This document shows positions 12,642 through 62,750 of a stretch of DNA of 64,000 nt, piece by piece. The DNA is taken from positions 34,693,133 through 34,757,132 of the forward strand of contig NC_061863.1 in the NCBI RefSeq assembly GCF_907164915.1, read 5' to 3'. The notes below the pieces were generated by a model. The model did not search any database, was not told the origin of the DNA, and saw only the letters and a list, made by a program, of their open reading frames with translations. The stretch's first letter is position 1. Every line of letters starts with the position of its first letter. The position numbers and the translations under genes were made by a program. The stretch is from Impatiens glandulifera (Eukaryota; Streptophyta; Magnoliopsida; Ericales; Balsaminaceae).

Positions 12642-13581
12642 GAATAATGATAGGGGAAGTGAAAAATTTATAGCGAATGAGACAACAATGTTGTAGCATT
12701 GCACATGTCATCTTACAAATATGACCCCTATCAATTTCTCTCTCTTAAATTTTTAATTTTTAATTTTACATTTCACCTAAAGATTTTTAATAATTTTTCT
12801 CTCTCCTTATCTTTTATTATATATGTTTATTTCATTTGAAATTGAATTATAATATGATAAATTCTTAATTACTTAAATAATTTAACTTAAATTATAAACT
12901 ACTAATATTTAAAATAATAGAACTCAAATTACTAATATTCAATCTAGATAAAAAAATATATATTAGTATAAAAGAGAAGTTTTAATATAGACTCAAATCT
13001 TCTATTTCAAATGATATGTTCCATTATGTACCACGTTCACAAAAATTAATTATTTTAAACAATAAGTCAAAACACAAAAATTAATTATTTTAAAGAATAA
13101 GTCAAAAGTAATTAAGAGAGAGGAAAAAACCCACATATTTTGTGAATGTGGTACAAAATGAAACATAAATTTTGAAACAACAGATCTTAAGAGAAATAAC
13201 ATATAAATAAATACATTTAGTTATTTTATTCTTTTGATTTATTCTTTCTCATTATTATTTTAAAAACATATAAATAATTAATTAGATTAAAAATCAATTA
13301 ATATTTTTGATATTTAACTTCCTATTATATTTCTCTCTATATATGATGTAATATATATATATATATATTGATTTATTAATTTATTAATTTTTAAAATTAT
13401 TATTCTTAAAATATATAAATACAAATTAAAAGATAAAAAAATATATAAATGAAGAGAAGAGAAGAGAAAAAAAGAAAAGAAAAGAGAAAAGACCAAAGAG
13501 AAAATATTAAAAAAAAGAAAATAATCTCCACATCATTCGTTGCATTTTTTTTACAAAATTTTTGCTCCCCTATCATTACTC
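12642..13581. mobile_element. non-autonomous TIR DNA transposon, probably Mutator-like
   Basis: The termini are inverted repeats: left GAATAATGATAGGGGA, right end read in reverse GAGTAATGATAGGGGA, one mismatch in 16. An identical 9-bp direct repeat TTATTTTTA flanks it at 12,633-12,641 and 13,582-13,590. A 9-bp duplication suggests the MULE superfamily. The ~940-bp interior has no transposase. It holds a ~40-bp direct duplication (around 13,035-13,110), a short TA run near 13,355 and a purine-rich tract (13,449-13,510). The satellite reads through on both sides, so this is a clean insertion into a monomer. Confidence 0.8.
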
Positions 13582-13603
13582 TTATTTTTAATAAGTTAAA
13601 CTT

Positions 13604-14643
13604 TTTTTTTGGAAAACAGCTTAGTGCAATTTCATTAAAAAAACCCAAAAAAGGGAAAAAAATACAAAAGTTTAAGATCAGATCTAGACAATTTCTATAT
13701 TTGACAATGAACCAATATTGAATTACAGACAATAACAATAATCAATTAGAGCCTACATCGTTTTTACTTTTATTCTACTTGTGACCTTCTCAAACGAAAT
13801 ATCCCATATTTGGCAGAACTTTCTATTCTCTTCATTCCTTTCGATTCCTCTCCAGGATTGAATGAGTGAATTTCCATCTGAAGTTATATCTCTCCAAATA
13901 TCTTCAGCGGTTCTACTTCTTCCACTGTGAGTTCTTGAATTTCTTTCTTTCCAGATATTATATATTACTGCTCCAAAATAGCATTTCAACATACTTACAT
14001 AGAAGGATCTTCCTTTTTCTTTATTCTTCATCCACTCTTGGATTTCTTCCCATATTCCTGGAAAGTTGATGATGTTCATGTTTACAGCATACATCTTCCA
14101 GATTTGTATTACAAAAGGGCATTCCCCAAATAAATGGTTTATGCTTTTCTCAACTCCTGAACATAGACACAGTTGATATCAGGAATGTTTATGTATTTTC
14201 GAATTTTGTCTTTTGTTGTCAACCTTTTCCTGTATACCAGCCAGAGAATAAATTGGTTATGAGGAATAATCTTTGGAGACCATACCACATTATGCCAATT
14301 TACCTCATGTCCTCTTGTTCTAACCATTTCCCATGCCTTTCCTATAATAAACTTCTCATCGCTTTCTATTTTCCAGCATATTTCATCATTACTTTCATTG
14401 AGTTGTTTCTGCGTCATTAGGTTTAGGATTCTATCACCTTCTGGATTACGCCTCAAAAGTGAATCACATTTACCTTCATAGACGTCTCTAAATGAGTACT
14501 TGATGTATTCTCTTCTAACTCCGTTTCCTTGCATTTCTTCTTTGAATATAGTGAGAATATTATCCAGCCAAGGATCATGCCAGAATAATACCTTCTTCCA
14601 TTTCCAATTGTGGTTTTCACCATTTGTGGTTTTCACCAATTGT
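13604..14643 (-). mobile_element. 5'-truncated L1-type LINE inserted in the satellite
   Basis: This minus-strand element ends in a short poly(A), seen as T9 at 602-610 of the 13,600 block, just after the 3' motif AATGAAATTGCACTAAGC. The same 3' motif, slightly changed, ends the second LINE near 41,585. The flanks GTTAAACTT (13,595-13,603) and GTAAAACTT (14,644-14,652) form a 9-bp target duplication with one mismatch. Satellite sequence resumes in phase after it. Only the C-terminal part of ORF2 remains, so the element is dead. Confidence 0.8.
13753..14640 (-). pseudogene. LINE ORF2 C-terminal (zf-RVT-type) remnant
   Basis: Reading on the minus strand, the remnant starts with WKKVLFWHDPWLD, the G/W-F-W-H-D-x-W signature that precedes the zinc-binding zf-RVT region of plant L1-type ORF2. 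It continues through WHNVVWSPKIIPHNQFILW and RLTTKDKIRKY. A frame break near 14,139 interrupts it, and it resumes at 14,094 with a tail carrying YFGAVIYNIWKERNSRTH. Endonuclease and reverse transcriptase are absent. The closest relative in the window is the second LINE (WHKVVWSSKVIPRNQFNFW), so both belong to one family. An immediate duplication of GTGGTTTTCACCA lies at the truncated 5' junction. Confidence 0.8.
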
Positions 14644-14652
14644 GTAAAACTT

Positions 14653-15767
14653 ATCTTTAACACATTATAAATTATTTTGAGAAATACTTTTTTATTTTAG
14701 AATATTCTTAGAATATCGGGTATTTATAATTAAATAAGATTTAAAAAAAAATATTTATCTTATTTTTAAAATATGTTGAGTTTTCTTAATTATTTTTAGA
14801 TATTTTGTGTGATTTTATTTCAAATTGAATTTTTTTTTCATTTTTTTCATTTATTTTAATTTTAATTTTTTAATATAAAAATAATCTCAACTAAATGAAC
14901 CAAACTTATTTGAATATTATTTACCATATTTTATTATTTTATTTAGGTTATATTTTGTTTTTAATAAATAAAAGTCATCTCAATACAATTAAATCATTTG
15001 TTGATGAGATTTTTTTATTTTCGAATATTTTAAGAAAAAGAAATAATTAAATTTAAATAAGAATTTTTTTGGTGAAAAAAATAATCTTCTCGTATTTGAA
15101 ATTAAACTGATATTTTTCGTAATCATTCTTGGGATATTATGAATTATTTGATTTTAAATTGCATTAATTTTTATTTATTTCAATTAATTTATTCTAATTG
15201 AAGAATAATTTTGTAATACAAAAGTTATCTTAACAAAATATAAATTATCGCAAACCTTATTCAAATATTATTTACAATATTGTATTATTTTATGTTAAGT
15301 TATATCTTTGTAAAATAAGTAAAAGTTATCTCAGTACATGATAAATTATTTTGAGACGTACTTTTTCATTTTGGAATATTCTTAAAATGTCGGAGAGTTT
15401 TACTTAGAATAAAAGTTATTTATTTTAAAATAAATTATCTTATCTTATTTGACAATAAGATGAGTTTTCTTAATGTATTTTGAGATATTTCGTGTAGTTT
15501 ATGTCAAATTTTATTTATTTTTTTATTTATTTCCTATAGTTTAATCTAAACTAAGATTAGGTTTGTAATATAAAAGTTATCTCAATCAAATATCAATTAT
15601 CACAAACTTATTGAATATAATTTACAATATTGTATTATTTTATGTTAGGTTATAATTTTTTAATAAGTAAAAGTTATGTCAATATATTTTAAATTATTTT
15701 GAGACGTACTTTTTTATTTTGAAATATTCTTAGAATGTGGGAATTTTTTATTTTAAATAAGAGTTTT
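14653..15767 (+). repeat. satellite array, continuation
   Basis: The ~340-bp satellite resumes in the same orientation and phase after the LINE target duplication, including another TTGTTGATGAGAT-type monomer near 14,993. After subtracting the two insertions, the distance from the previous monomer of that type (11,643) is about 1,350 bp, or four monomers. It ends abruptly at the RE-B LTR terminus. Confidence 0.88.
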
Positions 15768-16973
15768 TGAAAGAATTGGTGGCACCAATAGAAACAAGGG
15801 TTTAACTATTGATGACAACATCTGGAAAACATTTTGATAGAAATCTTGTTAGGGATTTATATCACTTTCTATTCTTCACAAACCTTTGCAAACTCTTGAA
15901 ACGATTCAAGTGCGGAAACGTTTGCTTGGGTTTGAAGCTAAGAACGAATGAAAGAATGAAGGACAAAATGTAGAAGACACAGAGAGTTATTTATGGATGT
16001 TTGGAACAAAACTCTCCTACGTCACCCCTTCTTCCAACCACTGGAAGGATTCACTATACTTTCTTCGAATCAAATACAGTTTCAATGCTAGCTAACTGTT
16101 GAACAGAACAGACTCTGTTCAACTTATAAAAGGTTAAAGAATATCACTCAGCTATACAGGGTTTAGATTTTATCTCTCTCTTGATGTACAAACTCAGTAA
16201 GCAAACAAGTGAGCAATTCGTGAGATGGATTGTAAGTCTGACAGATCGTCCATTTTCCTTGAAGATCTTTAAATAGAGAACATGTACCTACTGTCGAATC
16301 TTCTACCTTAAAACATGGAAAACACCCATTGGAAAGCCTCCATAGTACACAGGTACAGCAGACACTAAGCACAAAAATTGTGGCTGTACCAATTTGGTAG
16401 TGCACCGAATATTCTTCTAGGATTGTCCTGCAAGGAACAATAAGTGGAAAGAATATTTACTTACGTGGCATTCATTCATTGGATGCAACTGACTGTCATA
16501 CTGATTTACACGGATTAGTGGAGCAGGAGTAGCATATAGCTAGTTGATCGTGGGTAGACGGATGCTAACTTCAAGTAACTACTGAAGCGAGACATTAGAC
16601 GTGCTCCATTGACTACCAAGTCTAATGAAGTTACACACTCCCATCTAATAGTAGGATCCATTAGACCACCAAGTCTAATGGATTTAGACGTCACGTTTCA
16701 CTTCAGACTAGTCTGAAGGAGTTAGACTCCCTAAGTCTAACTTTCATTTGTTAGACTGCACGTCTAACCACGTATCTGTTAGACTACACGTCTAACTACG
16801 TATATATTATACTGTATGTCTAACCACATATCTGTTAGACTGTACGTCTAACCACATGTCTGTTAGTCTGCACGTCTAACCACGTATCTATTAGACTGCA
16901 CGTCTAACTATGTGTCTGTTAAACTGCACGTCTAACCACGTATCTGTTAGACTGCACATCTAATCACATATCT
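15768..16973 (-). repeat. RE-B 3' LTR, distal part
   Basis: The terminus reads TGAAAGAATTGGTGG on the plus strand, matching the 5' LTR end TGAAAGGATCGGTGG at 36,451. The shared block CTCTCCTACGTCACCCCTTCTTCCAACCA lies near 16,011-16,040 and occurs in all related LTRs. From ~16,600 the LTR becomes an array of TTAGACTGCACGTCTAAC units spaced by CACGTATCTG-like linkers. RE-A is inserted in this array. The LTR continues at 28,343. Confidence 0.85.
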
Positions 16974-41192: not shown

Positions 41193-41610
41193 TGCTTCTT
41201 TGGATCCTTGGTCTACAATACTTGGAGAGAAAGAAATACAAGAATTCATAGTACGAATAAAAGAACAGAAGGAAAAGTTTGGGATGATATTGTTTCTGAT
41301 GGCAATGCTCTCATACATACATGAAGGGGAATTCCGAATAATGAAGATAGTTGGAAGCTCGGTCAAAGATGGAATATCCCCTATAAAATCATTACAAGGA
41401 AATGAAAGTTTAAATAGTTCTTATTTAATGACTTGTTTGTAATTCAATTGTTTGATATTCTGTTTGTTCTATAATTCAGTTGTTTGAAATTTATTTGGTT
41501 TTTTTTAACAAAGCTAGGGTTTGTCTAGCTTTGTTTCTTGAAACTCATTTTCCCTCTTTTGAGGTTTTTAATGAAATGGAACTAAGCCGTCCCCCCCCCC
41601 AAATAAAAAA

Positions 41611-41796
41611 TATTCGAATAAGTTTGGTCCATTTAGTTGAGATTACTTTTATATTACAAAACTAAAATTAGTTTAAATTAAAATAAATGGAAAAAATGCA
41701 ATTTAAAATAAAATCACACGAAATATGTCAAAATAATTATGAAAACTCATCGTATTTTGAAATACGATAAATAATTTTTTAAACAAAAAAAACTCT
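41611..41796 (-). repeat. satellite fragment, inverted
   Basis: The reverse complement of the left satellite is recognised: TATTCGAATAAGTTTGGTCC, AAAATCACACGAAATATGTC, CTCATCGTATTTTGAAATACG. Less than one monomer remains, between the LINE tail and the CACTA terminus. Orientation is opposite to 724-15,767. Confidence 0.88.
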
Positions 41797-41839
41797 CACT
41801 GTTAAAAAATCGACCTTTACCGACGGTATTTATTGAAAG
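41797..41839 (+). repeat. CACTA 5' terminus
   Basis: It starts with CACTGTTAAAAAATCGACC, followed by TTTACCGACGG, typical of plant En/Spm-type ends. The left flank triplet TCT (41,794-41,796) would be the 3-bp target duplication; the other end lies outside the window. Confidence 0.8.
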
Positions 41840-43229: not shown

Positions 43230-44500
43230 TACTTTTGTCAAAAAAATATGGTAATTGCGAAAGGTATTCAAAGAACCATCGCTTTTAATTCGTAATTGCG
43301 AAAGTTTTATTGTAAAACTCTCGCCTTCGACCCTTCCCCCAAAGAATCTGAAATTTTTCTAAGTGTCGGTGGGTGAGTATTTGCGAAAGTTTTCCAATAA
43401 ACTTTCTCTTTTAACCTTTCCCCAAAAAATTTTGAAATTTTTTCTAAGTGTATGGAAGGGTTATTTGCGAAAGTTTTCCAAACAACTTTCGCTTTTGACC
43501 CTTCCCTAAAAAAATCTGAAATTTATCTAAGTGTTGGGAAGGGTATTTGTGAAAGTTTTCCAATAAACTTTCGGTTTTGACCCTTCCTCCCCAAAAAAAA
43601 TGAAATTTTTTCTAAGTGTTGGGAAGGGGTATTTGCGAAAGTTTTCCAATAAACTTTCTCTTTTGACCCTTCTCTAAGAAAATCTGAAATTTATCGAAGT
43701 GTTGGGAAGGGTATTTGCGAAAGTTTTCTAATAACCTTTCGGTTTTGACCTTTCCCCAAAAAAATTGAGAGTTTTTCTAAGTGTTGGGAAGGGGTATTTG
43801 CAAAAGTTTTCCAATAAACTTTCGCTTTTGACCCTTCTGCAAAAAAAAATTGAGAATTTTTCTAAGTGTTGGGAAGGGTATTTGCGAAAGTTTTCTAATA
43901 TACTTTCGATTTTGATCATTCCCCAAAAATATTTAGAATTTTTCTAAGTGTTGGGAAGGGGTATTTGCGAAAGTTTTCCAATAAACTTTCACTTTTGACC
44001 CTTCCCCAAAAAAATTGAGAATTTTTCTTAGTGTTGGTAAGGGTATTTGCGAATGTTTTCCAAACAACTTTCGCTTTTGACCCTTCCCTAAAAAAATCTG
44101 AAATTTTTCTAAGTGTTGGGGAGGGGTATTTGCGAAAGTTTATTGGAAAACTTTCGTATTTAACCCTTCCCTAAAAAATCTGAAATTTTTCTAAGTGTTG
44201 GAAAGGGTATTTGCGAAATTTTTCTAATAAACTTTCAATTTTAACCCTTCCCAAAAAAAAGAGAATTTTTCTAAGTGTTGGGAAGGGGTATTTGCGAAAG
44301 TTTTCCAATAAACTTCCGCTTTTGACCCTTCCACAAAAAATCTGAAATTTTTCTAAGTGTTAGGAAGGGTCAAAGGCAAAAGTTTTCAATAAAACTTTCG
44401 CTTTTAACCCTTCTCCAAAAAAATTTAAAATTTTTCTAAGTGTTGGGAAGGGTATTTGCGAAAGCTTTATTGAAAACTTTCGCCTTTGACAATTCCCAAA
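43230..44500. repeat. ~80-86-bp hairpin minisatellite
   Basis: About fifteen units of a direct repeat include CTAAGTGTTGGGAAGGGTAT, TTTGACCCTTCCCC and the inverted repeat GCGAAAGTTT-N7-AAACTTTCGC. One measured unit is 85 bp. The stem sequence is the same motif seen in the subterminal region, so the array multiplies that motif with a potential 10-bp hairpin per unit. Confidence 0.88.
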
Positions 44501-45510
44501 AAACATTCTATTTAAGGTTAGGACCGAGAGTTATATGTATAACTTTCGGAAATAATGATCAAAACCGAAAGTTAATGGTATAACTTTCGGTTTTACCACT
44601 TCATAATTTGTTAAATTAATTGGTTTTTCACCTACTAATCTAGACTCCTAACTAATCTAATCATGTGTGTGTTGTTTTTTAAAAATTAAGATTATGTTTA
44701 ATGTTAAAATGTCTATTATTGTGTTTGATTATATAAAGAAGTGTATATGTATGTTCGTGTTTGTTGATCATATGAATGTCTATAAAGTTTGATCATATGG
44801 ATTGTGTAATGTTTTAAAGTTATCAAATGTGTTAAATTAATGATGTTCAAAGTCATTAGAAGATTAAAAACTAATTAATTTAACAATTTTTGAAATGGTA
44901 ATTCCGAAAGTTAATGGTATAACTTTCGGAAATAACCATCAAAATCGAAAGTTATACCATTAACTTTCGGAATTACCATTTCACAAATTGTTAAATTAAT
45001 TGGTTTTTTACTTTCCAATCTAAACTCCTAACTAATATAATCAAGTGTGTGTTATATTTTAAAAATGAAGATTGTGTTTAATGTTAAAATGTTTATGATT
45101 GTGTTTGATTAGATAAAGAAGTGTATATGTATGTTTGTGTTTGATTATCCTATGAATTTGTGTAATGTTTGATCATATGGATTGTGTAATGTTTTAAGAA
45201 TATCAAATGTGTTAAATTAATGGTGTACAAGGTTATTAGAAAGTGAGAAACCAATTAATTTAAGAAATTGTGAAGTGGTAATTCCGAAAGTTCATGGTAT
45301 AACTTTCGGAAATAACCATAAAAACCGAGAGATATACCAAAATCTCTCGGTTTTATCTATTTAAATTTAATTGTATATATGTCAAAATAGAAAGATTTAG
45401 ACACATCTCTCGGAATTTAATTGATCAAAACCGAGAGTTATATGATTAACTTTCGGAATTAATCAATTGATCAAAGCTGAAAGTTAATCATATAACCTTC
45501 GGTAATAACC
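44501..45510. repeat. inverted CGAAAGTTA repeats and duplicated segment
   Basis: Palindromic stretches such as CCGAAAGTTAATGGTATAACTTTCGG recur near 44,566-44,595, 44,903-44,975 and 45,283-45,310. Two ~360-bp segments (from ~44,580 and ~44,945) are near duplicates, sharing AATTGGTTTTT, CCTAACTAAT, TGTGTGTT and ATCATATGGATTGTGTAATG. Confidence 0.8.
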
Positions 45511-51597: not shown

Positions 51598-51636
51598 ATT
51601 CTATGTTGCTGTTATTAATTAGCATTAAATAGTATG

Positions 51637-52992
51637 TGTTGGGTTAAGATTTTTAATGTTTAAACAAGTTTTGATTATTTAGCTTAAATAATCAAAAAGG
51701 GAGAAATTATTGGTTAAGATTTTTAATGTTTAAACTGGTTTCAATAAGTTAGTTTAAATAATCAAAAATGGAGAAATTGTTGGGTTAAGATTTTTAATTG
51801 ATTTAAAGTAACTTAACAATTTTGATTTGATGATTGATGAAATAGTTTTTGATAATAAATGGTTAAAACTAAGTTCAATAATTGTTTATATAAATATATA
51901 TTTAGATATCAACATAGTCTGTGGTGTAATGGTAAGTACACCTACCTATCATGCTGGTGACCTGGGTTCAAATCTCACCAGATTTATAATTAATAATTGG
52001 ATTTTTGTTAATTTACAGGCATAGCTAAAAGTCAACGCACGACAGTCTAACCAGTGGGGGTTCTAACGTGTGGTTAGACGTGGAGGTCTAATGTTAGATG
52101 GGGCGTCTAATGCAGATTGCGTCTAATCAAATGAACGGTCGAGATGAGGCGTCTAATAGACTGTTAGATGGGGGCGTCTAAGCAGATGTACGACTAAGAT
52201 GATCAGATGGGCATTTGAAGGTAGATGCTCTTCCAGACAATTGGCAACTAGAAGTAGAGTCTTCCAGGCAGTTGACAACTGAGCTCAATAAATGAATAAT
52301 CTCCACGTATGCCATAATTCAAATTGCTTGTACTGCATTGTACTACCACGATCTCAATAATCTTTTTCTGCTATACTACCCAGTACCTCATGGATAGTAC
52401 ATCCAACGGAAAGATGACATGTGTCCAAAAGAAGAATTTGACCGTTGAAGCTTTTCAAGAATAAATTGCTGCCTAAGACAACGGACAAATTGCTGGCTGA
52501 AAAATACAAGAAAGAGAGAGCTGCTTCATTTTTCATTCAAAAAAGTTCCTGAAATCAAACATTTCACTTATCATCTAGTTGTGAATACATTGTATTACAT
52601 ACTGTCTTTTCTGTGAGAAAACTTCAGTATTGTAAGTTGAACAAAGGTTGTTTTGTTCAACAGAGAGTTAGCTAGATTAGTGAACTGTATTTAATTCAAA
52701 GAAGTATAGTGAATCCTTCCAGTGGTTGGAAGAATGGATGACGTAGGAGAGTTTGATCCGAACATCCATAAACAACTTCTTGTGTTCTTTACTTTCTGTC
52801 ATTCATCTTTCATTGGTTCAAAGCTTCAAATCCGACGAATATTTCCGCACTTGAATCTGTTTCAAGAATTCGAAGCATTTGCGAAGAATAGAAAGAGATA
52901 TTAATCCCTAATAGGATTTCTATCAAACAGTTTATCCGAAGTCGTCATCAATAGCCAAACCCCCGTCTCTATTGGTGTCGTCGATCCTATCA
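51637..52992 (+). repeat. RE-D 5' LTR
   Basis: It starts TGTTGGGTTAAGATTTTTAATG and ends GATCCTATCA. The first 145 bp contain a tandem duplication of the LTR start together with PPT-like AAAAAGGGAGAAAT and AAAAATGGAGAAAT, so LTR-start motifs occur near 51,637, 51,706 and 51,780. A tRNA-like segment and one remnant TTAGAC repeat (52,040-52,180) follow. The promoter-proximal block GGATGACGTAGGAGAG is near 52,735. Confidence 0.82.
51917..51983 (+). other. tRNA-Asp-like segment in RE-D 5' LTR
   Basis: It contains TGGTGTAATGG, matching the A-box consensus TRGYNNARNNG, and GGTTCAAATCT, matching B-box GWTCRANNC. In between is CACCTACCTATCATGCTGGTGACC, laid out like tRNA-Asp with the anticodon position reading ATC (GTC in the 3' LTR copy). 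The acceptor stem does not pair well, so it is a tRNA-derived relic, not a tRNA gene. Confidence 0.7.
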
Positions 52993-53007
52993 ATTGGTAT
53001 TAGAGCC
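52993..53007 (+). other. RE-D primer-binding site
   Basis: ATTGGTATTAGAGCC directly follows the LTR end; one change from the usual tRNA-Met complement. Confidence 0.85.
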
Positions 53008-53044
53008 TTGTTTTCTATTCTCAAGCTTCTAAGGAATTTGAATC

Positions 53045-54689
53045 ATGTTTATGGCTGTCATCAACAATGTTCCCATGTTCTTATAGAAAAACTATGTCGT
53101 GTGTAAGGCGAGAGTCCACACTCATCTAGCTGCCATAGATGATGACATGTGGTTTGATATCACCAACGGTCCGATAAAGATTGAGAAGGCTAGATCTGAG
53201 TGGACCAGTGAAGATAAAAGAAAGAACAACCTCAATAACATAGCAAAAGACATCCTCTATAAGACATTGGATGACAACAAGATTATCATTTGTCCCACTG
53301 CCAAAGATATTTGGGAGAAGCTGACAAAACTGTGTGAGGGCAACGAGAAAACAAAAGAAAACAGACTCATGGTTGCCACTCAACAGTTCGATAACTTCAA
53401 GATGCGTCATAGAGAGACGATGACTGAGTTCGATGAGAGATTCAGTAAGGTTATCACTTCTCTATCCACTCTGGGCAAGACTTACAACAATAGAGAGGTT
53501 GCGATCAAACTCATGCGTGCTTTTCCCAGAGAGTGGGATATTAAGACGATGGCGATGAGGAAGTCTAAAGACCTCAATAAGATGAAGTTCTTTGACTTGC
53601 TGGCCGATCTGAAGGCCTATGAGCTCGAGTTGAACTATAGAAATGAAGAGGAGCATCCCACATCCACCATCATAACAAAGGCATTGGTGACGGTTGAGGA
53701 GCCATCTACTGCCACTACTGTGAAGGCTACTTCTATGCAGATTAGCAGAGATGCCATGGCTCTTTTTATGAAGAATATATGCAAATTCATGAAGAAGAGA
53801 CACTTCAAGGAAGGAAACAACAAGCTGAAGCTTGATGAGAAAAAGAAAGATGAGAAAAAGAACAAGAAAGAGCTGAAGACTCTCATGGTGGCTGAAAACA
53901 AAGCCAATGGGCCGACAACGACTCAGATGATTCATCATCCAACGTTAGTGATGATGAAGAGGTCACTTGCTTCATGTCAAAAGAAGAAGTTGACTCTGAG
54001 GTATTTGATTTTTCCTCTGAAAAAATCTCAAGAGATGAGTTAATTACTGCACTCAATGACATGGTCATTGATTACAAGAAACTGTCAGACTCTTTTGATG
54101 AATTAAAATTGAAAAACAAATCTGACAGCTCTTCTTCATCTCGAAATAATGATTCTGAAGTTTTAAAAACAAAATGGCTGAGCTCTCATCTGAGAATGAA
54201 AAGCTCAAGGAAAATGTTCAAACTTTGATTTCTGAAAACCAACGTTTGACATATGTGGTCGATTCCTGGACGAAGTATGGAGATGCAGTTAGACAGTAGA
54301 TAAGTATGTTGAGGCCTGCCAGATGCAAATCCGGTTTAGGATTTGATGGCAATGACTCAGACAAGTCTTGTGAAAAATTAAACCCAAAAACTGACAAGTT
54401 TAAGTCTATAAACTTTGTCAAAGGGAGCTTAACTAAGAATGGAATTGATCCAAGCTGTGATGAGTTAACCTTGAAGGATGAGATTACTTATGTTCCGTCA
54501 ACTGTTAGCTGACTGAAACTTAAGATGGAAGCAGCCAGTAAGTCTGGAATATTAAAACTTGACAGGAAGTCAAGGAGTTTTAGACAAAAACCATCCTCTA
54601 AGATTAACAGTTCAGCTGCTAGTAGGAAGACATCTGCTAAGCCTAAATCATACGCACCGATCACAACGCAACATGGGAAATCCATAAAA
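53045..54689 (+). pseudogene. RE-D gag, frameshifted, split by RE-E
   Basis: It starts MFMAVINNVPMF with an early stop, then from 53,099 an open stretch: KARVHTHLAAIDDDMW, CEGNEKTKENRLMVATQQF, MRAFPREWDIKTM. The zinc knuckle is missing between KKRHFKEGNN and KKELKTLM. Frame changes follow near 53,925 and 54,180. Later parts are recognisable: ALNDMVIDYKKLSDSF, KSGLGFDGNDSDKSC, SYAPITTQHGKSIKI. The coding sequence resumes after RE-E at 60,089 with WIPKG. Confidence 0.85.
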
Positions 54690-55895
54690 ATAATTGTTAG
54701 GATCTAGGTCGCGGCTGGAGGACCGGGGTTGGGCCGGTTAGCGCGTTTCACTCAAAGGGTGGTGATTAATCCTGTTAGAGATTAACACCGGGGTTTCAAT
54801 ACTACACAAACTGTCACAAACCCTTGAACTAGGTTCAAGCGCGGAAGAGGTTTGTTTCAGGTTGAAGCAGCACACTCACAAGATAGGCAGAACCGTTTTT
54901 GAATAGGACAGGTTTGGAAATTGATGGGTCGGTTTTTGTAACTTGGTGATTCGGTTTAGATAGTGTAGAGTCAGTTAAAAAGGTGTGGGTCGGTTAGAAT
55001 GGGTCAGTTAGAATGTAAAACCAGCAGAAAGTAAATAACAAGACAGGTTTTTATGGATGTTCGGAGATAAAACTCCTACGTCACCCCTTCCTCTTGAAAC
55101 CGTGAGAAGGATATTCACTAAGGAATACAAATACAATCCGATCGAGACTTATTTCCTGCTCGATAACACCCTTACAATTTACACCGAAATTGTAAAATAC
55201 ACACTTCAACTTTAGCACTTATGCTTTCTAGAGAGAGAGAACACACTCTTTTCACTTGTAGATTAAATGTTCACTATGTCTCACGTATATCACTTGTTCC
55301 GTATTGTGTCCCGTTTGAACTCTTCTTCAGCTGCTCCTTTTATAGGTGAAATATGCCAACGGTCATATTTCACTTTCTTGAATCTGATTGGTTGAACAGA
55401 GGTTCAGTGATTCAGACCCTACGGTCATCTTTTCAGACCTGGTGGTCAACTCTACAGACTTTACAGTCTGTTCTTCCGGTGTGTAAGACAAACCTGCTAG
55501 GTTTGTCTTTTACTCAATGTGGTAACTGTTGGTTAGACAGTTGTCTGTACTTGGAAGATTGTCTCTGATTTATCCTGAAAGTGGAAAGATCATGTAGGAC
55601 TGTCTTCTGCAGCCTGTCGACTTTCCTCAGACTTGTATGAATATGGAAATGTTCAGTCTGTTCCTTTGGTATCATTCTCAACAGATACCCGAAGTATCTT
55701 CTTATGTTGGTCGGTCATTTGACTTAGCCTGATGACTTCCGGTTATTGACCGGCTGTCTGGTGTTTCCTGCCTTCAGTTTTGACCGATCTTGTCTTTCTT
55801 TGTGCGGAAATGTTTCTGGTCGGTTTGATTGCTTGACCGGTTGAGTTTCTTAACCGGTTGAGTTCTTTGACCGGTTGAATTCTTTACCTGTTCTG

Positions 55896-56180
55896 GATGA
55901 CTTCAGGTTTTTTCATAGCTTCAGGTTAACCGGATGACTTCAGGTTTTTCATAGCTTCAGGTTAACCGAATGACTTCAGGTTTTTCATAGCTTCAGGTTA
56001 ACCGGATGACTTCAGGTTTTTCATAGCTTCAGGTTAACCGGATGACTTCAGGTTTTTCATAGCTTCAGGTTAACCGGATGACTTCATGTTTTTCATAGCT
56101 TCAGGTTAACCGGATGACTTCATGTTTTTCATAGCTTCAGGTTAACCGGATGACTTCAGGTTTTTCATAGCTTCTTCTGG
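55896..56180 (-). repeat. 36-bp tandem repeat in RE-E 3' LTR
   Basis: Eight near-identical units, GGATGACTTCAGG plus TTTTTCATAGC plus TTCAGGTTAACC, the last partial. The 5' LTR copy (59,522-59,700) has five units. TTCAGG occurs twice per unit. Confidence 0.92.
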
Positions 56181-56433
56181 CCGGTTTGATATTCAACCGG
56201 TTAGATTTATTGACCGTTCTTTCGGTTTACAACTCAACCGATCCTGAACTTGAACCTGTCCGGATTTCTGCACATAGGTTGAACATGTCCGGATTTTGAA
56301 CTTCTTGACCGAACCGGTTGACCGAACTCCGGTTGACTGAGTCGGTATACATTGTCGAGCCGATCTTGCCTATAGGTAAATTTCGGATTTTGCTCAGCTT
56401 CCCTGAAATAGCAAAACTTTAAATATTATTTGT

Positions 56434-56500
56434 TGTCGGTGAGATTTGATCCTTGGTCACATGTGTGACAGGCATGGGTGTTTACCACTACGCTACAGCT
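56434..56500 (-). other. tRNA-Asp-like segment in RE-E 3' LTR
   Basis: On the minus strand: TAGCGTAGTGGTAAACA (perfect A-box TAGCGTAGTGG), then GCCTGTCAC with the anticodon position GTC, GTGACC, and GGATCAAATCTC (B-box GATCAAATC). Core words match plant tRNA-Asp-GTC. It starts about 60 bp from the LTR start. Confidence 0.75.
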
Positions 56501-56560
56501 TCTTGTTATATTTAAATCAATTAATATACTTGATATGACTTAACGGTTTATTTTCTAACA

Positions 56561-56663
56561 ATTTCTCCCTTTTTGATTATTTAGAATAAATATTCAAAAC
56601 TTGTAATCGTTGGCCGGTTTAAAATTAACTTACTTAATTTTTCTAACAATTTCTCCCTTTTTG
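56561..56663 (-). other. duplicated polypurine tract of RE-E
   Basis: AAAAAGGGAGAAAT in element sense lies directly before the LTR start (56,561-56,574). It occurs again about 88 bp inward (56,649-56,662), each followed by TGTTAGAAAA-like sequence. So the PPT and the first bases of the LTR are tandemly duplicated. Clustered PPT copies are a known Sirevirus feature. Confidence 0.8.
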
Positions 56664-56743
56664 ATTATTTAGAATAAATATTCAAAACCATGCAAGAAGT
56701 AAGAGGTAGGCCGGTTTAAAAATCTGATGTTTGTTTCGCCGGT

Positions 56744-56989
56744 TTAGAAAAGCTTATGTTTGTTTGGCCGGTTTTTGGAAAAACGGTTTGGTTTAAGGAG
56801 AACATTATTTGAAGAAGAATTTTGTATGAAATTTTTTTTGTAATCTAACAATTCTAAGATATTTCTAAGGGAAGAAAACTTAGACTCGATAAGTGGCTTT
56901 GTGAGGATGTTAGCCACTTCATGTTTGTTCCCTTCATGTGATGTGTCTGTCAGCAACCGGCTGTCCGAATGCAATGTTGTCTTTTCCAA
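56744..56989 (-). pseudogene. RE-E pol-tail remnant (RNase H end)
   Basis: HEVANILTKPLIESKFSSLR corresponds to the RNase H end QQTADIFTKPLPEAKF of RE-A. Nothing else of pol is present between it and gag. It lies in a different frame from gag and overlaps the gag end. RE-D has the same remnant at 60,225-60,330, showing a shared deletion. Confidence 0.8.
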
Positions 56990-58313
56990 GCCTTTGTCTT
57001 GATTTACCTACATTCATAGACAATAGAAAATCTGGTTCCCATTTTTCTTTGGGTCCGTGGTTGATTAGTCCCTTGGGTATCCAAACTTTAATAAATCGGA
57101 TAGCTTTCCCGGTTATGGTTCTAATTAGTTTTCCTGTGTAAGACTTGACATCTTTCTGCTGTCCTAAGAGTGCCTTATTTGGGGATGGTCTTTGGTTTAT
57201 CCTATGCGGTTGAGAATTGGCTTGCCTACTTTTGAACCGGTTGGCTTTCCTTTTCTTAGGGTGAAGCCATTTCTCAGAATCAATCGGACCTACATAGGTT
57301 AATTTGTCTTCCGTATAATAGGCAGTTAATTCCTCTTCAGCGGTTAAGGAGCTTCTTATAAAACTTATAAAGGGAAGATCATTCTTTGTGAGCCTTACTT
57401 TGTCTAAGTGTTTTTGGCTTTGGGATCTATTGTTTTTGTAACCTAGACCAAACATGCAAGTAGGGTGTCTTTTGTAACTACACATTTTTCTTACCATTTC
57501 ACTAGATCTCTTCCATGCGGCCATTCTATATTGGAGGCGGGCATTTTCTTCCTCGGTCAATTCTTGAACTGGCTCATTGAGCTGTTCGGTTTCAGAGGGT
57601 AGTCCAGGTGCTGACTCGGTTTCTAAGGTAGGGGTTTCATCAGGTTGTATGATCTTTGGTTCGGTCAGAATGGGTACTATGAGGTCGGCTCTAAAATTGG
57701 GTTGCTTAGGTAATAGAGTTAGTAGGTTATTATACTCTGCTACCAAATCATTCAATGCATTATATAACTCATCTTTAGTAAATTCTTCACAAGGAGAGTC
57801 AAATACTTGTTCCTCATTTGCCATAAGGCATGTGAGTTCATCATCACTGTCATTGTGAGCCCATAAGCTTCCTCCATCATCGACTATCAGTGCTTTCTGA
57901 ACCTCACTTCCTTCACCGGTTTGTTGATAGTTATTTCTGTTATTTTGATTGTCCGGTTTCCGGTCATCTCTCCTCGGATTTCTGCATTCCCACTTGTTTT
58001 CCTTGATTCTTTCATTTCCCTCATAAATCTGAATAACCTTGTCCCATGTTTCCTTTGCGGTTTTGCAGTCTCTGATCTTGCAGTACGTGTTTTTGTCCAC
58101 ACTGTTGGAAATCCGGTTTCTAGCATGGTTGTCCAAGTTATTTCTTCTCCTGTCTTCAACTGTCCAGTCCTTTCTGTCCTTATCAATGATTATCGGTCCT
58201 TCGGCTAAAATGAACTGCATTTCATCATCCATGGTGATTAAGTGTAGGTGCATGCGTGCCTTCCAGTTGGCGAAGTCATCACCTTCTAGCAATGGGGGCC
58301 TATCGAAAGACAT
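56934..58313 (-). CDS. RE-E gag-like protein, intact frame with internal deletion
   Basis: An uninterrupted 459-codon frame, starting MSFDRPPLLEGDDFANWKAR. The first half of the UBN2-type region is present (DKVIQIYEGNERIKEN), then the frame jumps to KWECRNPRRDD, the last residues of a zinc knuckle. The second half of the capsid domain and most of the knuckle are missing without loss of frame. After this come an acidic segment (NDSDDELTCLMANEE), a Pro/Glu-rich linker, ARLQYRMAAWKRSSEMV and the C-terminal IKVWIPKGLINHGPKEKW, plus ~35 residues that run into the former pol tail. It may still be translated, but it lacks parts needed for RNA packaging. Confidence 0.85.
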   Translation of the reverse strand: MSFDRPPLLEGDDFANWKARMHLHLITMDDEMQFILAEGPIIIDKDRKDWTVEDRRRNNLDNHARNRISNSVDKNTYCKIRDCKTAKETWDKVIQIYEGNERIKENKWECRNPRRDDRKPDNQNNRNNYQQTGEGSEVQKALIVDDGGSLWAHNDSDDELTCLMANEEQVFDSPCEEFTKDELYNALNDLVAEYNNLLTLLPKQPNFRADLIVPILTEPKIIQPDETPTLETESAPGLPSETEQLNEPVQELTEEENARLQYRMAAWKRSSEMVRKMCSYKRHPTCMFGLGYKNNRSQSQKHLDKVRLTKNDLPFISFIRSSLTAEEELTAYYTEDKLTYVGPIDSEKWLHPKKRKANRFKSRQANSQPHRINQRPSPNKALLGQQKDVKSYTGKLIRTITGKAIRFIKVWIPKGLINHGPKEKWEPDFLLSMNVGKSRQRLGKDNIAFGQPVADRHIT

Positions 58314-58338
58314 GCTTGCTTGAGTATTGAAACTAACT

Positions 58339-58352
58339 GCTCTGATACCAAT
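58339..58352 (-). other. RE-E primer-binding site
   Basis: Plus-strand GCTCTGATACCAAT adjoins the 5' LTR end; ATTGGTATCAGAGC in element sense, complementary to initiator tRNA-Met. Confidence 0.88.
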
Positions 58353-60083
58353 TGTTAGGATCTAGGTCGCGGCTGGAGGACCGGGGTTGGGCCGGTTAGC
58401 GCGTTTCACTCAAAGGGTGGTGATTAATCCTGTTAGAGATTAACACCGGGGTTTCAATACTACACAAACTGTCACAAACCCTTGAACTAGGTTCAAGCGC
58501 GGAAGAGGTTTGTTTCAGGTTGAAGCAGCACACTCACAAGATAGGTAGAATCGATTTTGAATAGGACAGGTTTGGAAATAGGTTTAGATAGTGTAGAGTC
58601 GGTTAAATAGGTGTGGGTCGGTTAGAATGGGTCGGTTAGAATGTAAAACCAGCAGAAAGTAAATAACAAGACAGGTTTTATGGATGTTCGGAGATAAAAC
58701 TCCTACGTCACCCCTTCCTCTCGAAACCGTGAGAAGGATATTCACTAAGGAATACAAATACAATCCGATCAAGACTTATTTCCTGCTCGATAACACCCTT
58801 ACAATTTACACCGAAATTGTAAAATACACACTTCAACTTTAGCACTTATGCTTTCTAGACAGAGAGAACACACTCTTTTCACTTGTAGATTAAATGTTCA
58901 CTATGTCTCACGTATATCACTTGTTCCGTATTGTGTCCCGTTTGAACTCTTCTTCAGCTGCTCCTTTTATAGATGAAATATGTCAACGGTCATATTTCAC
59001 TTTCTTGAATCTGATTGGCTGAGCAGAGGTTCAGTGATTCAGACCCTGCAGTTATCTTTTCAGACCTGGCGGTCAACTCTACAGACTTTACAGTCTATTC
59101 TTCCGGTGTGTAAGACAAACCTGCTAGGTTTGTCTTTTACTCAATGTGGTAATTGTTAGTTAGACAGTTGTCTGTACTTGGAAGATTGCCTCTGATTTAT
59201 CCTAAAAGTGGAAAGATCATGTAGGACTGTCTTCTGTAGCCTGCAGACTTTCCTCAGACTTGTATGAATATGGAAATGTTCAGTCTGTTCCTTTGGTATC
59301 ATTCTCAACAGATACCCGAAGTATCTTCTTATGCTGGTCGATCATTTGACTTAGCCTGATGACTTCCGGTTATTGACCGGCTGTCTGGTGTTTCCGGCCT
59401 TCAGTTTTGACCGATCCTGTCTTTCTTTGTGCGGTCATGTTTCTGGTCGGTTTGATTGCTTGACCGGTTGAGTTTCTTAACCGGTTGAGTTATTTGACCG
59501 GTTGAATTCTTTACCTGTTCCGGATGACTTCAGGTTTTTTCATAGCTTCAGGTTAACCGGATGACTTCAGGTTTTTCATAGCTTCAGGTTAACCTGGATG
59601 ACTTCAGGTTTTTCATAGCTTCAGGTTAACCGGATGACTTCAGGTTTTTCATAGCTTCAGGTTAACCGGATGACTTCAGGTTTTTCATAGCTTCTTCTGG
59701 CCGGTTTGATATTCAACCGGTTAGATTTCTTGACCGTTCTTTCGGTTTACAACTCAACCGGTCCTGAACTTGAACATGTCCGGATTTCTGCACATAGGTT
59801 GAACATATCCGGATTTTGAACTTCTTGACCGAACCAGTTGACCGAACTCCGGTTAACTGAGTCGGTATACATTGTCGAGCCAATCTTGCCTATAGGTAAA
59901 TTTCGGATTTTGCTCAGCTTCCCTGAAATAGCAAAACTTTAAATATTATTTGCTGTCGGTGAGATTTGATCCCTAGTCACATGTGTGACAGGCATGGGTG
60001 TTTACCACTACGCTACAGCACCTTCTTGTTATATTTAAACCAATTAATATACTTGATATGACTTAACGGTTTATTTTCTAACC
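58353..60083 (-). repeat. RE-E 5' LTR
   Basis: Nearly identical to 54,695-56,560, with five instead of eight 36-bp units and a ~40-bp deletion near 58,580. The outermost base is C where the pair has A (element-sense start GG instead of TG), just before the target duplication. Confidence 0.9.
59954..60020 (-). other. tRNA-Asp-like segment in RE-E 5' LTR
   Basis: Same segment as at 56,434-56,500. Here the outer ends can also pair (TGCTGT with ACAGCA), giving an acceptor-like stem. A-box TAGCGTAGTGG and B-box GATCAAATC are intact, anticodon position GTC. Confidence 0.75.
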
Positions 60084-60088
60084 ATAAT

Positions 60089-60399
60089 CAATGTATGGAT
60101 TCCCAAGGGACTATTAAGCCATGGGACCAAAGAAAATTGGGAACCATATTTATTATTTTTAAATGCAGGTAAGACAGGAAAGCAGCTTGGAAGAGCCAAA
60201 CGGCATCTGGACAGCTGACTGCTCGGACATAGCATATGACAATCAGCAGCCTGAAGTGGCTGACATCTTCTTAAAGCCACTTCTCGAGTCTAAGTTTTAT
60301 TACCTTAGAAATATTTTTAAGATTGTTAGATTATGATAATGCCTAGATTATGTTTAAATCATGAACTCGACTAGTTTTGATGATTTAGTTTAAATTATC
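60089..60399 (+). pseudogene. RE-D gag end plus pol-tail remnant
   Basis: RE-D resumes with the gag end (WIPKG, then HGTKENWEP) and the same short extension as RE-E. It then reads GCTGACATCTTCTTAAAGCC, equivalent to the ADIFTKPL tail of RNase H. No other pol sequence is present. It ends just before the PPT. Confidence 0.8.
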
Positions 60400-60413
60400 A
60401 AAAAGGGAGAAAT
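60400..60413 (+). other. RE-D polypurine tract
   Basis: AAAAAGGGAGAAAT adjoins the 3' LTR start TGTTGGGTT. Further copies lie inside the LTR near 60,474-60,487 and 60,544-60,557, each followed by LTR-start-like TTGG-TTAAGATTTTTAAT sequence. Confidence 0.8.
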
Positions 60414-60706
60414 TGTTGGGTTAAGATTTTTAATGTTTAAATTAGTTTTTGATAATTTAGTTTAAATAATCAAAAAGGGAGAAATTATTGGTTATGATTT
60501 TTAATGTTTAAACTGGTTTTGATAAGTTAGTTTAAATAATCAAAAAGGGAGAAATTGTTGGGTTAAGATTTTTAATTGATTTAAAGTAACTTAACAATTT
60601 TGATTTGATGATTGATGAAATAGTTTTTGATTATAAATGGATAAAACTAAGTTCAATAATTGTTAGTCATATCAAATATATAAATATATATTTAAATATC
60701 AACATA

Positions 60707-60773
60707 GTCTGTGGTGTAGTAATAAGTACACCTGCCTGTCATGCTGGTGACATGGGTTCAAATTTAACCAGAC
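60707..60773 (+). other. tRNA-Asp-like segment in RE-D 3' LTR
   Basis: Counterpart of 51,917-51,983, with the anticodon position reading GTC (CCTGTCATG). The A-box region is changed (TGGTGTAGTAA) and the B-box is GTTCAAATT, so it is more decayed than the 5' copy. Confidence 0.65.
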
Positions 60774-60849
60774 ATATAATTAATAATTGGATTTTTGTTA
60801 ATTTACAGGCACAACTAAAAGTCAACGCACACGTGCAAAGTCAACGCAC

Positions 60850-61080
60850 GGTGTTAGACGTGCAGTCTAACTAGTGGAGTTAGACATACAGTCTAAACAG
60901 TGGAGTTAGACGTGCAGTCTAACTAGTAAAGTTAGACGTGCAATCTAACTAGTGAAGTTAGACGTGCAGTCTAACTAGTGGAGTTGGACGTGTAGTCTAA
61001 CTATTGGAGTTGGACGTGTAGTCTAACTAGTGGAGTTGTACGTGCAGTCTAACTAGTGGAGTTAGACATGGGGGGTCTAA
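60850..61080 (+). repeat. hairpin array in RE-D 3' LTR
   Basis: Around nine units of TTAGACGTGCAGTCTAACTAGTGGAG (26 bp). The 5' LTR has about one comparable unit near 52,045. The palindrome is the same as in RE-A, B and C although the rest of the LTR is quite different. Confidence 0.88.
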
Positions 61081-62087
61081 CGTGTGGTTAGACGTGGGGG
61101 TCTAATGTTAGATGGGGCGTCTAATGCAGATTGCGTCTAATCAGATGAACAGTCGAGATGAGGCGTCTAATAGACTGTTAGATGGGGAGTTTAAGAAGAT
61201 GGACGGCCAAGATGATGTGTCTAAGCAGATGAACGTCTAAGATGATCAGTTGATCAGATGGACGACTAAGATGATCAGATGGGAATCTGAAGGCAGATGC
61301 TCTTCCAGACAACTGGCAGTTGACAACAGAGTCTTCCGGGCAGCTGTCAGCAGAGTCTTCTAGGCAGATGACAGCTGAGCTCGACAAATGAATAACCGCC
61401 ATGTATGCACTAATTCAAATTTAATGTACTACATTGAACTACCATGATCTCAAGAATCTTTTTCTGTTGTACTACCCAGTACCTCATTGATAGTACATCC
61501 AACGGAAAGATGAAATGTGTCCAAAAAAAGAATTTGACCGTTGAAGCTTTTCAAGAATAAATTGCTTCCTAAGATAACGGACAAATTGCTGGCTGAAAAA
61601 TACAAGAAAGAGAGAGATGTTTCATTTTTCATTCAAGAAAGTTCCTGAAATCAAACATCTCACTTATCATTTAGTTGTGAATACATTGTATTACATACTG
61701 TCTTTTTTGTGAGAAAACTTCAGTGTTGTAAGTTGAACAAAGGTTGTTTTGTTCAATAAAGTGTTAGCTAGATTAGTGAACTGTATTTGATTCAAAGAAG
61801 TTTAGTGAATCCTTCCGGTGGTTGGAAGAAGGGGTGACATAGGAGAGTTTGCTCCGAACATCCATAAACAACTTCTTGTGTTCTTTACTTTCTGCCATTC
61901 ATCTTTCATTGGTTCAAAGCTTCAAATCCGACGAATATTTCCTCACTTGAATCTGTTTCAAGAGTTCGAAGATTTTGCGAAGAATAGATAGAGATATTAA
62001 TCTCTAATAGGATTTCTATCAAACCGTTTATCCGAAGTCGTCATCAATAGCCAGACCCCCGTCTCTATTGGTGTCGCCGATCCTATT

Positions 62088-62750
62088 AGTATCCTATTTA
62101 ATATTCGATCTATTTGCAGAGATTATATGTAGTATTGCAATAACAATGAGTCACATGGAGAAACGTTTGTCGTCTATTTCAAGCATAGAGTGAGTAGATT
62201 ATAAACCATATCTCCTAACTCTTTATATTTATTTTAACGACTACATTTCGGGTATATATATATAGGTCGCTCAATTAGTATAAATTAACGACATATCAAG
62301 AGACCTCAAGATATTAGGATAAGGTCCAAGTATGTACTCGTCTATGTATGTTTTGTGTAAAGTAAACGGATACAAATTCTGTACAGAAAAACACGACGAA
62401 GGTTTGACCACTCAAAATAGTGGGTGGTTATTGAAGGGTACAACGGGTCTGAAACTATGTCATACTACGGAGTTTTAATGGATATAATCAAAGTACAATA
62501 CTTTTCTCACAAACGAGTTGTGTTATTCAAGTGTAAGTGGTTTGATACACACTCGGGGGAACTAGGAGTGAAAGTGGATAAATATGGATTCATAAGTATA
62601 AATGTAAACCGAATTTTGAAAACCCAAAGTCAAGACCCATATGTATAGGCGAGTCAAGCAAAACAAGTATTCTACGCCCCTGATATGTCAGCCCGACCCG
62701 GTTGGAAAATTAAAACCGCGATTTACAAATATATAGTTCAGATTAATTAA
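62088..62750 (+). pseudogene. CACTA TNP2 C-terminal fragment (DUF4216 region)
   Basis: The TNP2 reading resumes after RE-D: HGETFVVYFKHR, then from 62,424 SYYGVLMDIIKVQYF, RVVLFKCKWFDT and KVDKYGFISINVNRIL, the DUF4216 region. A stop at 62,646 is followed in frame by ASQAKQVFYAPD, the expected continuation. It is separated from its upstream half only by RE-D. Confidence 0.88.

Follow-up and report, generated by a model that had tools for sequence, protein, structure and literature searches.

The stretch of DNA analysed here, called the window in what follows, comprises 64,000 nucleotides of Impatiens glandulifera (contig NC_061863.1, positions 34,693,133 to 34,757,132) and carries retroelements with long terminal repeats (LTRs), among them RE-D and RE-E. 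RE-E is nested within the internal region of RE-D on the opposite strand and has the target duplication ATAAT at both ends, while the duplications of RE-D, GTATG and GTATC, are one base apart. All four LTRs contain, on the sense strand of the element, a segment of 70–72 nt derived from tRNA-Asp(GTC). This agrees with the initial annotation, and the A box TAGCGTAGTGG, the B box GATCAAATC, and the anticodon GTC that it had read in RE-E are indeed in place. The target duplications delimit the RE-D LTRs to 51637-52992 and 60414-62088, so that the segment of the 5′ LTR begins at LTR position 279, which is position 138 when counted from the inner TGTTGGG (51778). The coordinates are collected in Table 1.

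The relation to tRNA-Asp was examined by scanning both strands of the window with a tRNA-Asp gene, a query that was afterwards matched exactly at no fewer than 40 places in the I. glandulifera genome (654 Mb searched). The four segments scored 152, 152, 143, and 134 and the next place 68, and six shuffled queries gave best window scores of 63–73, so that the segments stand above shuffled sequence. The anticodon position reads GTC in RE-E and in the RE-D 3′ copy, and ATC in the RE-D 5′ copy. The covariance check proposed with the initial annotation gave a divided answer. With the Rfam tRNA model, whose cut-off is 29 bits, the RE-D 5′ copy lay above the cut-off but one RE-E copy below it, and the other two segments were absent from the listing up to E = 10; among the copies in loci fetched from the rest of the genome, the cut-off was reached by 6 of 34 D segments, by none of six E segments, and not by the single F segment. 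ARAGORN called no tRNA in the window, and free folding of the four segments showed no clear advantage over shuffles (z from −1.76 to +0.80). A 5S rRNA was also looked for in the window, and no match was obtained at the Rfam gathering score or up to E = 10.

The copies of the three families described below (D, E, and F) were aligned with the host tRNA-Asp gene, and 35 of them (12 D, 6 E, and 17 F, making 36 rows with the real tRNA; set aside were the F rows with deletions in L056, L060, and L065, the F row of L016, and the remaining D and E copies) run over 72 columns with zero gaps. This supports an origin from a captured tRNA, one of the possibilities raised at the outset. The consensus of F is the nearest to the real tRNA-Asp (54 of 72 sites equal), followed by D (49/72) and E (46/72). 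The cloverleaf is damaged at fixed places: pair 48-64 is broken in 35 of the 36 rows, the real tRNA being the only one intact, and pair 2-70 in 32 of 36. The LTR segment is not a working tRNA gene; we regard it as a degenerate tRNA whose identity shows in its descent and not in a stable fold. It is almost certain, as judged from these comparisons, that a host tRNA-Asp gene was captured in the 5′ part of Copia-type LTRs.

Table 1. Features of RE-D and RE-E in the window (positions of the window; PBS, primer-binding site; ORF, open reading frame; Pol III, RNA polymerase III).
Feature	Position	Strand	Remarks
RE-D 5′ LTR, TGTTGGG...CCTATCA	51637..52992	+	GTATG target duplication 51632-51636
tRNA-Asp-like segment of RE-D 5′ LTR	51915..51986	+	Rfam tRNA 31.6 bits
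A-box-like TGGTGTAATGG, RE-D 5′ LTR	51922..51932	+	read from sequence
B-box-like GTTCAAATC, RE-D 5′ LTR	51966..51974	+	read from sequence
T-run, putative Pol III terminator, RE-D 5′ LTR	52002..52006	+	15 nt past segment end
RE-D PBS TGGTATTAGAGCC	52995	+	adjoining RE-D 5′ LTR
RE-D gag fragment	53087..54040	+	PF14223
RE-E target duplication ATAAT	54690..54694		strand not assigned; second copy 60084-60088
RE-E 3′ LTR	54695..56560	-	
tRNA-Asp-like segment of RE-E 3′ LTR	56432..56501	-	tRNA-Asp scan of window
RE-E gag ORF, 475 aa	56934..58361	-	PF14223
RE-E 5′ LTR	58353..60083	-	
tRNA-Asp-like segment of RE-E 5′ LTR	59951..60022	-	A box TAGCGTAGTGG, B box GATCAAATC, anticodon GTC; Rfam tRNA 24.2 bits
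RE-D 3′ LTR	60414..62088	+	GTATC target duplication 62089-62093
tRNA-Asp-like segment of RE-D 3′ LTR	60705..60776	+	tRNA-Asp scan of window

At least three families of elements, D, E, and F, have the segment in their LTRs, and the genome-wide survey of related LTRs that had been recommended found it in further copies of D and E as well as in F. For each family the best 40 candidates were scored, out of 432 for D, 1259 for E, and 1552 for F; these are candidates and not copy counts, and those of E and F probably overlap. Stretches were taken from 27 of the 40 places listed for D, to which the two in the window were added, and from the 23 (E) and 20 (F) that ranked best. The scan of the D loci lists 36 rows, made up of 34 D segments, one F segment, and one short piece. 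The 34 D segments are distributed across 20 fetched loci, to which the two of the window are added; two segments each were found in 14 of these loci, spaced by 2.9–4.1 kb in 13 of them and by 1.4 kb in one. A pattern of 20 nt around the A box that fits E and F was matched exactly 377 times in the genome and its reversed control not once; among the first 100 of the 377 places, 23 of the 25 same-strand neighbour pairs (<20 kb) were spaced by 2448–4240 bp.

In family E, the A box and the B box were each found in 20 of 20 stretches and the GTC loop in 19 of 20, these stretches being among the matches most similar to the query. Three elements of this family (2973, 3746, and 4223 bp long, with LTRs of 606–1612 bp and internal regions of 522–1761 bp) were delimited, with perfect 5-bp target duplications in all three, and the segment was present in the six LTRs. 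The two LTRs of each element are 99.75, 99.84, and 99.88% identical, and because of these near-identical pairs it is concluded that family E is young and moved recently. Over the measured copies, including that of the window, the E LTR ranges from 606 to 1866 bp, and the measured elements of this study have 3–5.4 kb. Family F was first noticed inside the locus L016 and is the most diverse of the three; exactly 72 nt are held by 17 of its 20 fetched copies. Two arrangements of modules were also observed on one contig of the assembly (G000:C1). Three same-strand modules at 54024442, 54028180, and 54031918 have an equal spacing of 3738 bp, like a tandem element with three LTRs, and eight pattern matches, seven of them on the same strand, fall within 0.36 Mb at 39.75-40.11 Mb.

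Regarding the coding content, three gag queries were used, and each of the 20 D loci is matched by one or more of them, 18 by the D gag. Among the E elements, L032 has a gag ORF of 412 aa, L031 a shorter one, and L033 a stub; gag is disrupted in several copies. The one protein matched by the RE-E gag comes from I. glandulifera. The protein searches beyond gag covered reverse transcriptase (RT), and two of the 20 D loci (L020 and L026) gave RT matches, which lie on the other strand and not between the two segments. The elements are Copia-type and non-autonomous, with gag as the sole coding region recognised. An autonomous partner was not found, the link of RT to these LTRs not having been searched genome-wide; within the first 100 of the 377 places, only two same-strand pairs have a spacing of more than 5 kb, and of these (6 kb of each) one had no match to the RT queries and the other had RT on the opposite strand.

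Both RE-D and RE-E have a PBS of the TGGTAT(C/T)AGAGC type and the polypurine tract (PPT) AAAAAGGGAGAAAT. The PBS TGGTATCAGAGC is one that we take to fit the initiator tRNA-Met and not tRNA-Asp, and for this reason a primer role for the tRNA-Asp segment was rejected. Some further repeats were seen inside the LTRs: both RE-D LTRs open with additional units of about 70 bp, each combining an LTR head with PPT-like sequence (51637-51777 and 60414-60555), and the RE-E LTRs contain 36-bp tandem repeats (55873-56210 and 59500-59730) whose number is unequal between the two.

The similarity of the families is not limited to the tRNA segment. About 45 nt upstream and about 40 nt downstream are common to D, E, and F and are conserved about like the segment itself. 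Upstream, within the segment, and downstream, the identities were 30/45, 52/73, and 24/42 between D and E, 33/45, 57/73, and 26/42 between D and F, and 40/45, 61/73, and 36/40 between E and F; in the stretch beyond the shared flanks they were 4/37, 6/40, and 4/20. The module is thus homologous across the three families, flanks included, and was copied along with the elements. Outside the LTR head, BLAST matched D and E to each other over only about 98 bp, in the middle of the LTR, at 77–79% identity. The LTR body of D matches instead a C-type LTR (78% over 370 bp at the 3′ end, plus tandem repeats), and the D gag is nearer to the C gag (53% over 227 aa) than to the E gag (45% over 95 aa). The C-type LTR heads in the window have no tRNA-Asp segment. 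Considering that the LTR body and the gag of D are nearer to C and that its head is shared with E, it appears that the module either was recombined between lineages or was lost in C. Another motif of the LTR heads resembles a 3′ splice acceptor (TTTTTGTTAATTTACAGG; TTTTGCTATTTCAGGG) and occurs in D, E, F, and C, for example, at 52002-52019, being looser in the heads that have no tRNA.

The flanks of the segment were then inspected in 27 of the 36 D segments and in 20 copies each of E and F. A TATA motif was found within 50 nt upstream in every copy (27/27, 20/20, and 20/20), CAA within 10 nt upstream in 22/27 D, 20/20 E, and 20/20 F, and at least four consecutive T within 50 nt downstream in 23/27, 20/20, and 19/20, respectively. 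In 20 real tRNA-Asp genes of the host, the same motifs were counted in 12 (TATA), 19 (CAA), and 20 (T-run), and a CAA ending at −1 was present in 15 of these 20 genes and in 15 of the 20 F copies. For tRNA genes of flowering plants, the frequencies given in PMC11700998 are 36–45% for CAA within 10 nt and 67–73% for poly(T). The module therefore has the layout of a plant tRNA gene, that is, an AT-rich flank with TATA, CAA, the A and B boxes, and a T-run about 15 nt downstream.

Taking into account that TATA, CAA, and a T-run flank the segment, an internal Pol III promoter is the best functional reading, and we tentatively propose, with confidence somewhat short of even, that the segment works as one. 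The explanation that we favour, which taken as a whole seems to us evenly balanced between right and wrong, is that the captured tRNA-Asp module serves as a site for TFIIIC/TFIIIB and a start for Pol III. The landing site and the start would lie inside the U3 region of the LTR. The Pol III product would be at most a short tRNA-like RNA of roughly 90–110 nt ending at the T-run, and the benefit for the element would be an LTR kept open for RNA polymerase II (Pol II) and not the synthesis of genomic RNA. A short Pol III transcript in the upstream LTR, or the binding of TFIIIC alone, would be the most economical function.

Several observations weigh against a selected promoter. The A and B boxes have no significant extra conservation over the rest of the segment (one-sided p = 0.345–0.73 in five of six comparisons, and 0.047 in D-E). 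The A-box consensus is exact in 23 of the 35 D, E, and F rows, the other 12 having one or two mismatches, and the B-box consensus is exact in 16 of 35. TATA and T-runs are expected anyway in AT-rich LTRs, and a T-run before CAGG was also seen in the C-type LTR heads printed, which lack the tRNA; from this it follows that the “terminator” may be an older motif of the LTR. Compared with the 20 real tRNA-Asp genes, the 5′ flank of the module is no more similar than shuffled sequence, so that a copied 5′ flank of a real tRNA-Asp gene has no support past the CAA motif. Moreover, the copies inside a family are not independent and represent effectively three lineages, and a selective difference between loops and stems, which was tried, disappears (p = 0.30) once the variation within families is allowed for. 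The suggestion of the initial annotation that retention in diverged LTRs points to function is thus weakened, since the flanks are similarly conserved and the boxes no better than the rest. No clear selection on boxes or fold appears beyond mutational bias, although some constraint is possible.

These data lead to the strongest rival of the promoter, in which the segment is an inert passenger: a single tRNA capture in an LTR region preserved for unrelated reasons, followed by neutral decay. We consider this a serious possibility, if less than probable. It would account for the flanks conserved about as well as the segment and for the lack of excess in the boxes, and also for the partial loss of the T and acceptor stems. 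In the 36 D segment copies, 129 of 204 changes are C>T or G>A, as is typical of decay, and within D the segment is more variable (0.079) than the LTR just upstream (0.027). It is harder to reconcile with a promoter layout retained in three families and with the recently active family E, whose consensus departs from tRNA-Asp at 26 of 72 sites while all 20 copies read still have an intact A box and an intact B box. Were the capture functional at the RNA level, the copy in the 3′ LTR, which would lie near the 3′ end of the genomic RNA (in U3), could form a tRNA-like structure for processing by RNase P/Z, for packaging, or for long-distance movement of the type reported for plant tRNA-mRNA fusions; tRNA-like mobility signals are described in PMC8166872. 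In the alignment, standard base pairs occupy 71.8% of the cloverleaf cells against 67.5 ± 0.7 in shuffled alignments, 40 cells are changed on both sides against 19 ± 4, and the covariation score is 0.264 against 0.186, none of the three being reached by any of 500 shuffles; controls with the fold slid along the alignment scored lower. Family E retains the anticodon-stem pair 28-42 despite changes on both sides, and the acceptor stem of D has five GUCUG/CAGAC pairs, which can be read as a compensatory change or, under another alignment, as a deletion in D. Invariant positions are also more frequent in loops (22/30) than in stems (17/42; p = 0.008), a difference that, as said, the variation within families equals. 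The number of pairs with double changes is nevertheless ordinary (10 against 8.5, reached by 119 of 500 shuffles), as are the pair types (97 of 500), the cell counts are inflated by the three lineages, and folding gave no clear gain over shuffles in five inputs, with the fifth in a shifted register. We consider a role in the RNA rather improbable.

A transcription of the full genomic RNA by Pol III would agree with a promoter layout inside the LTR and has a precedent in Cassandra (PMC10853983). This possibility is very unlikely, because in the six elements counted (three E and three D) the stretch from the 5′ segment to the 3′ segment contains 10–25 runs of at least four T; in addition, a T-run follows about 15 nt past the segment, and the elements have 3–5.4 kb. 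As to the origin, the tRNA sequence could have arrived as a tRNA-derived short interspersed nuclear element (SINE) inserted in an ancestral LTR, the route of Kojima's Helenus, and not by capture of a tRNA gene, which is compatible with any function. tRNA-derived heads are common among SINEs, and the D module is bordered by the direct repeat TTTTTG(A/T)TAAT. This repeat was considered as an insertion scar of the long interspersed nuclear element type and is unsupported: at least one comparable pair occurred in 24 of 100 shuffles and the three pairs seen were equalled in 5 of 100. No SINE body or A-tail follows the tRNA segment, free SINE copies not having been searched for, and the roughly 45 nt common to D, E, and F upstream of the segment also argue against this origin, which we hold to be unlikely. 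Returning to the promoter, its most ambitious form would have hundreds of LTRs each bearing a Pol III gene that actively produces a tRNA-Asp-like RNA, the cloverleaf and the GUC anticodon loop under selection, and the RNA or the TFIIIC complex aiding the element. We consider it quite unlikely; if it were true, such an RNA or complex might resist silencing or occupy tRNA-binding enzymes.

By comparison with known systems, the closest precedent is that of the TRIMp3 elements named Helenus by Kojima in 2024, which are terminal-repeat retrotransposons in miniature (TRIMs) with a tRNA in their LTRs (PMC10886601). As described there, they share with the balsam elements the presence in each LTR of a tRNA-derived segment containing the A and B boxes, the non-autonomous state, a mostly non-functional tRNA, a PBS, a PPT, and target duplications of 5 bp, a length reported for Helenus in fungi and plants, the fungal ones being tied to Copia. 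The remark of the initial annotation that a tRNA gene core is not a standard feature of LTRs is fair, except that this precedent exists, and the same author notes that not a few LTRs in Repbase look like part of a tRNA (PMC10886601). Helenus elements measure 311–1263 bp (from a screen below 1000 bp), with LTRs of up to 323 bp, no protein coding, and Selaginella as the only plant (PMC10886601). The balsam elements, in contrast, have 3–5.4 kb, LTRs of 0.6–1.9 kb, and gag in the D loci and in two of three E elements, and belong to a flowering plant; by length and gag they fall outside the TRIM definition. They are not members of Helenus and may work like it in part. Pol III transcription is unproven for Helenus too, and it is argued that autonomous partners, which need Pol II promoters, probably have no long LTR sequence in common with it (PMC10886601).

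Cassandra is similar in having a Pol III promoter from a small-RNA gene (5S) inside the LTRs of a non-autonomous plant element; it differs in that the gene is 5S rRNA, in its size of 565–860 bp, and in that Pol III makes the element RNA (PMC10886601). The nearest match in coding content is TR-GAG, non-autonomous plant LTR elements with gag as sole ORF, which are mobile in Arabidopsis ddm1 and whose description, as given in PMC8704663, mentions no small-RNA gene in the LTR. The “tRNA-like” case of mosquitoes corresponds to tandem tRNA copies at the PBS (PMC3286476). In the open-access literature searched, we found no description of a long, gag-bearing element of a flowering plant with a tRNA gene in its LTR.

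The Copia gag (PF14223), the PBS, and the PPT are like those of the Sirevirus/Maximus-type Copia, which we assume to be the related group; no RT by which the lineage could be fixed was found in the copies read. The balsam elements exceed the size limit of TRIMp3 and suggest that a Pol III-type promoter segment can sit in the long LTRs of gag-bearing elements. Such elements presumably depend on Pol II, and the segment would then need a role other than the synthesis of genome RNA. Family E is young and multi-copy, so that the role of a tRNA gene inside an LTR is testable by ordinary RNA sequencing and reporters. It is also possible that LTR segments of this kind yield spurious tRNA calls in genome annotation.

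Two other repeats were observed in the window. A large tandem array occupies 726-15768, with offsets of about 340 bp in the self-comparison and a related piece at 41603-41809, and units of about 84 bp are repeated in tandem over 43292-44507, where there are weak microRNA-like matches below the threshold.

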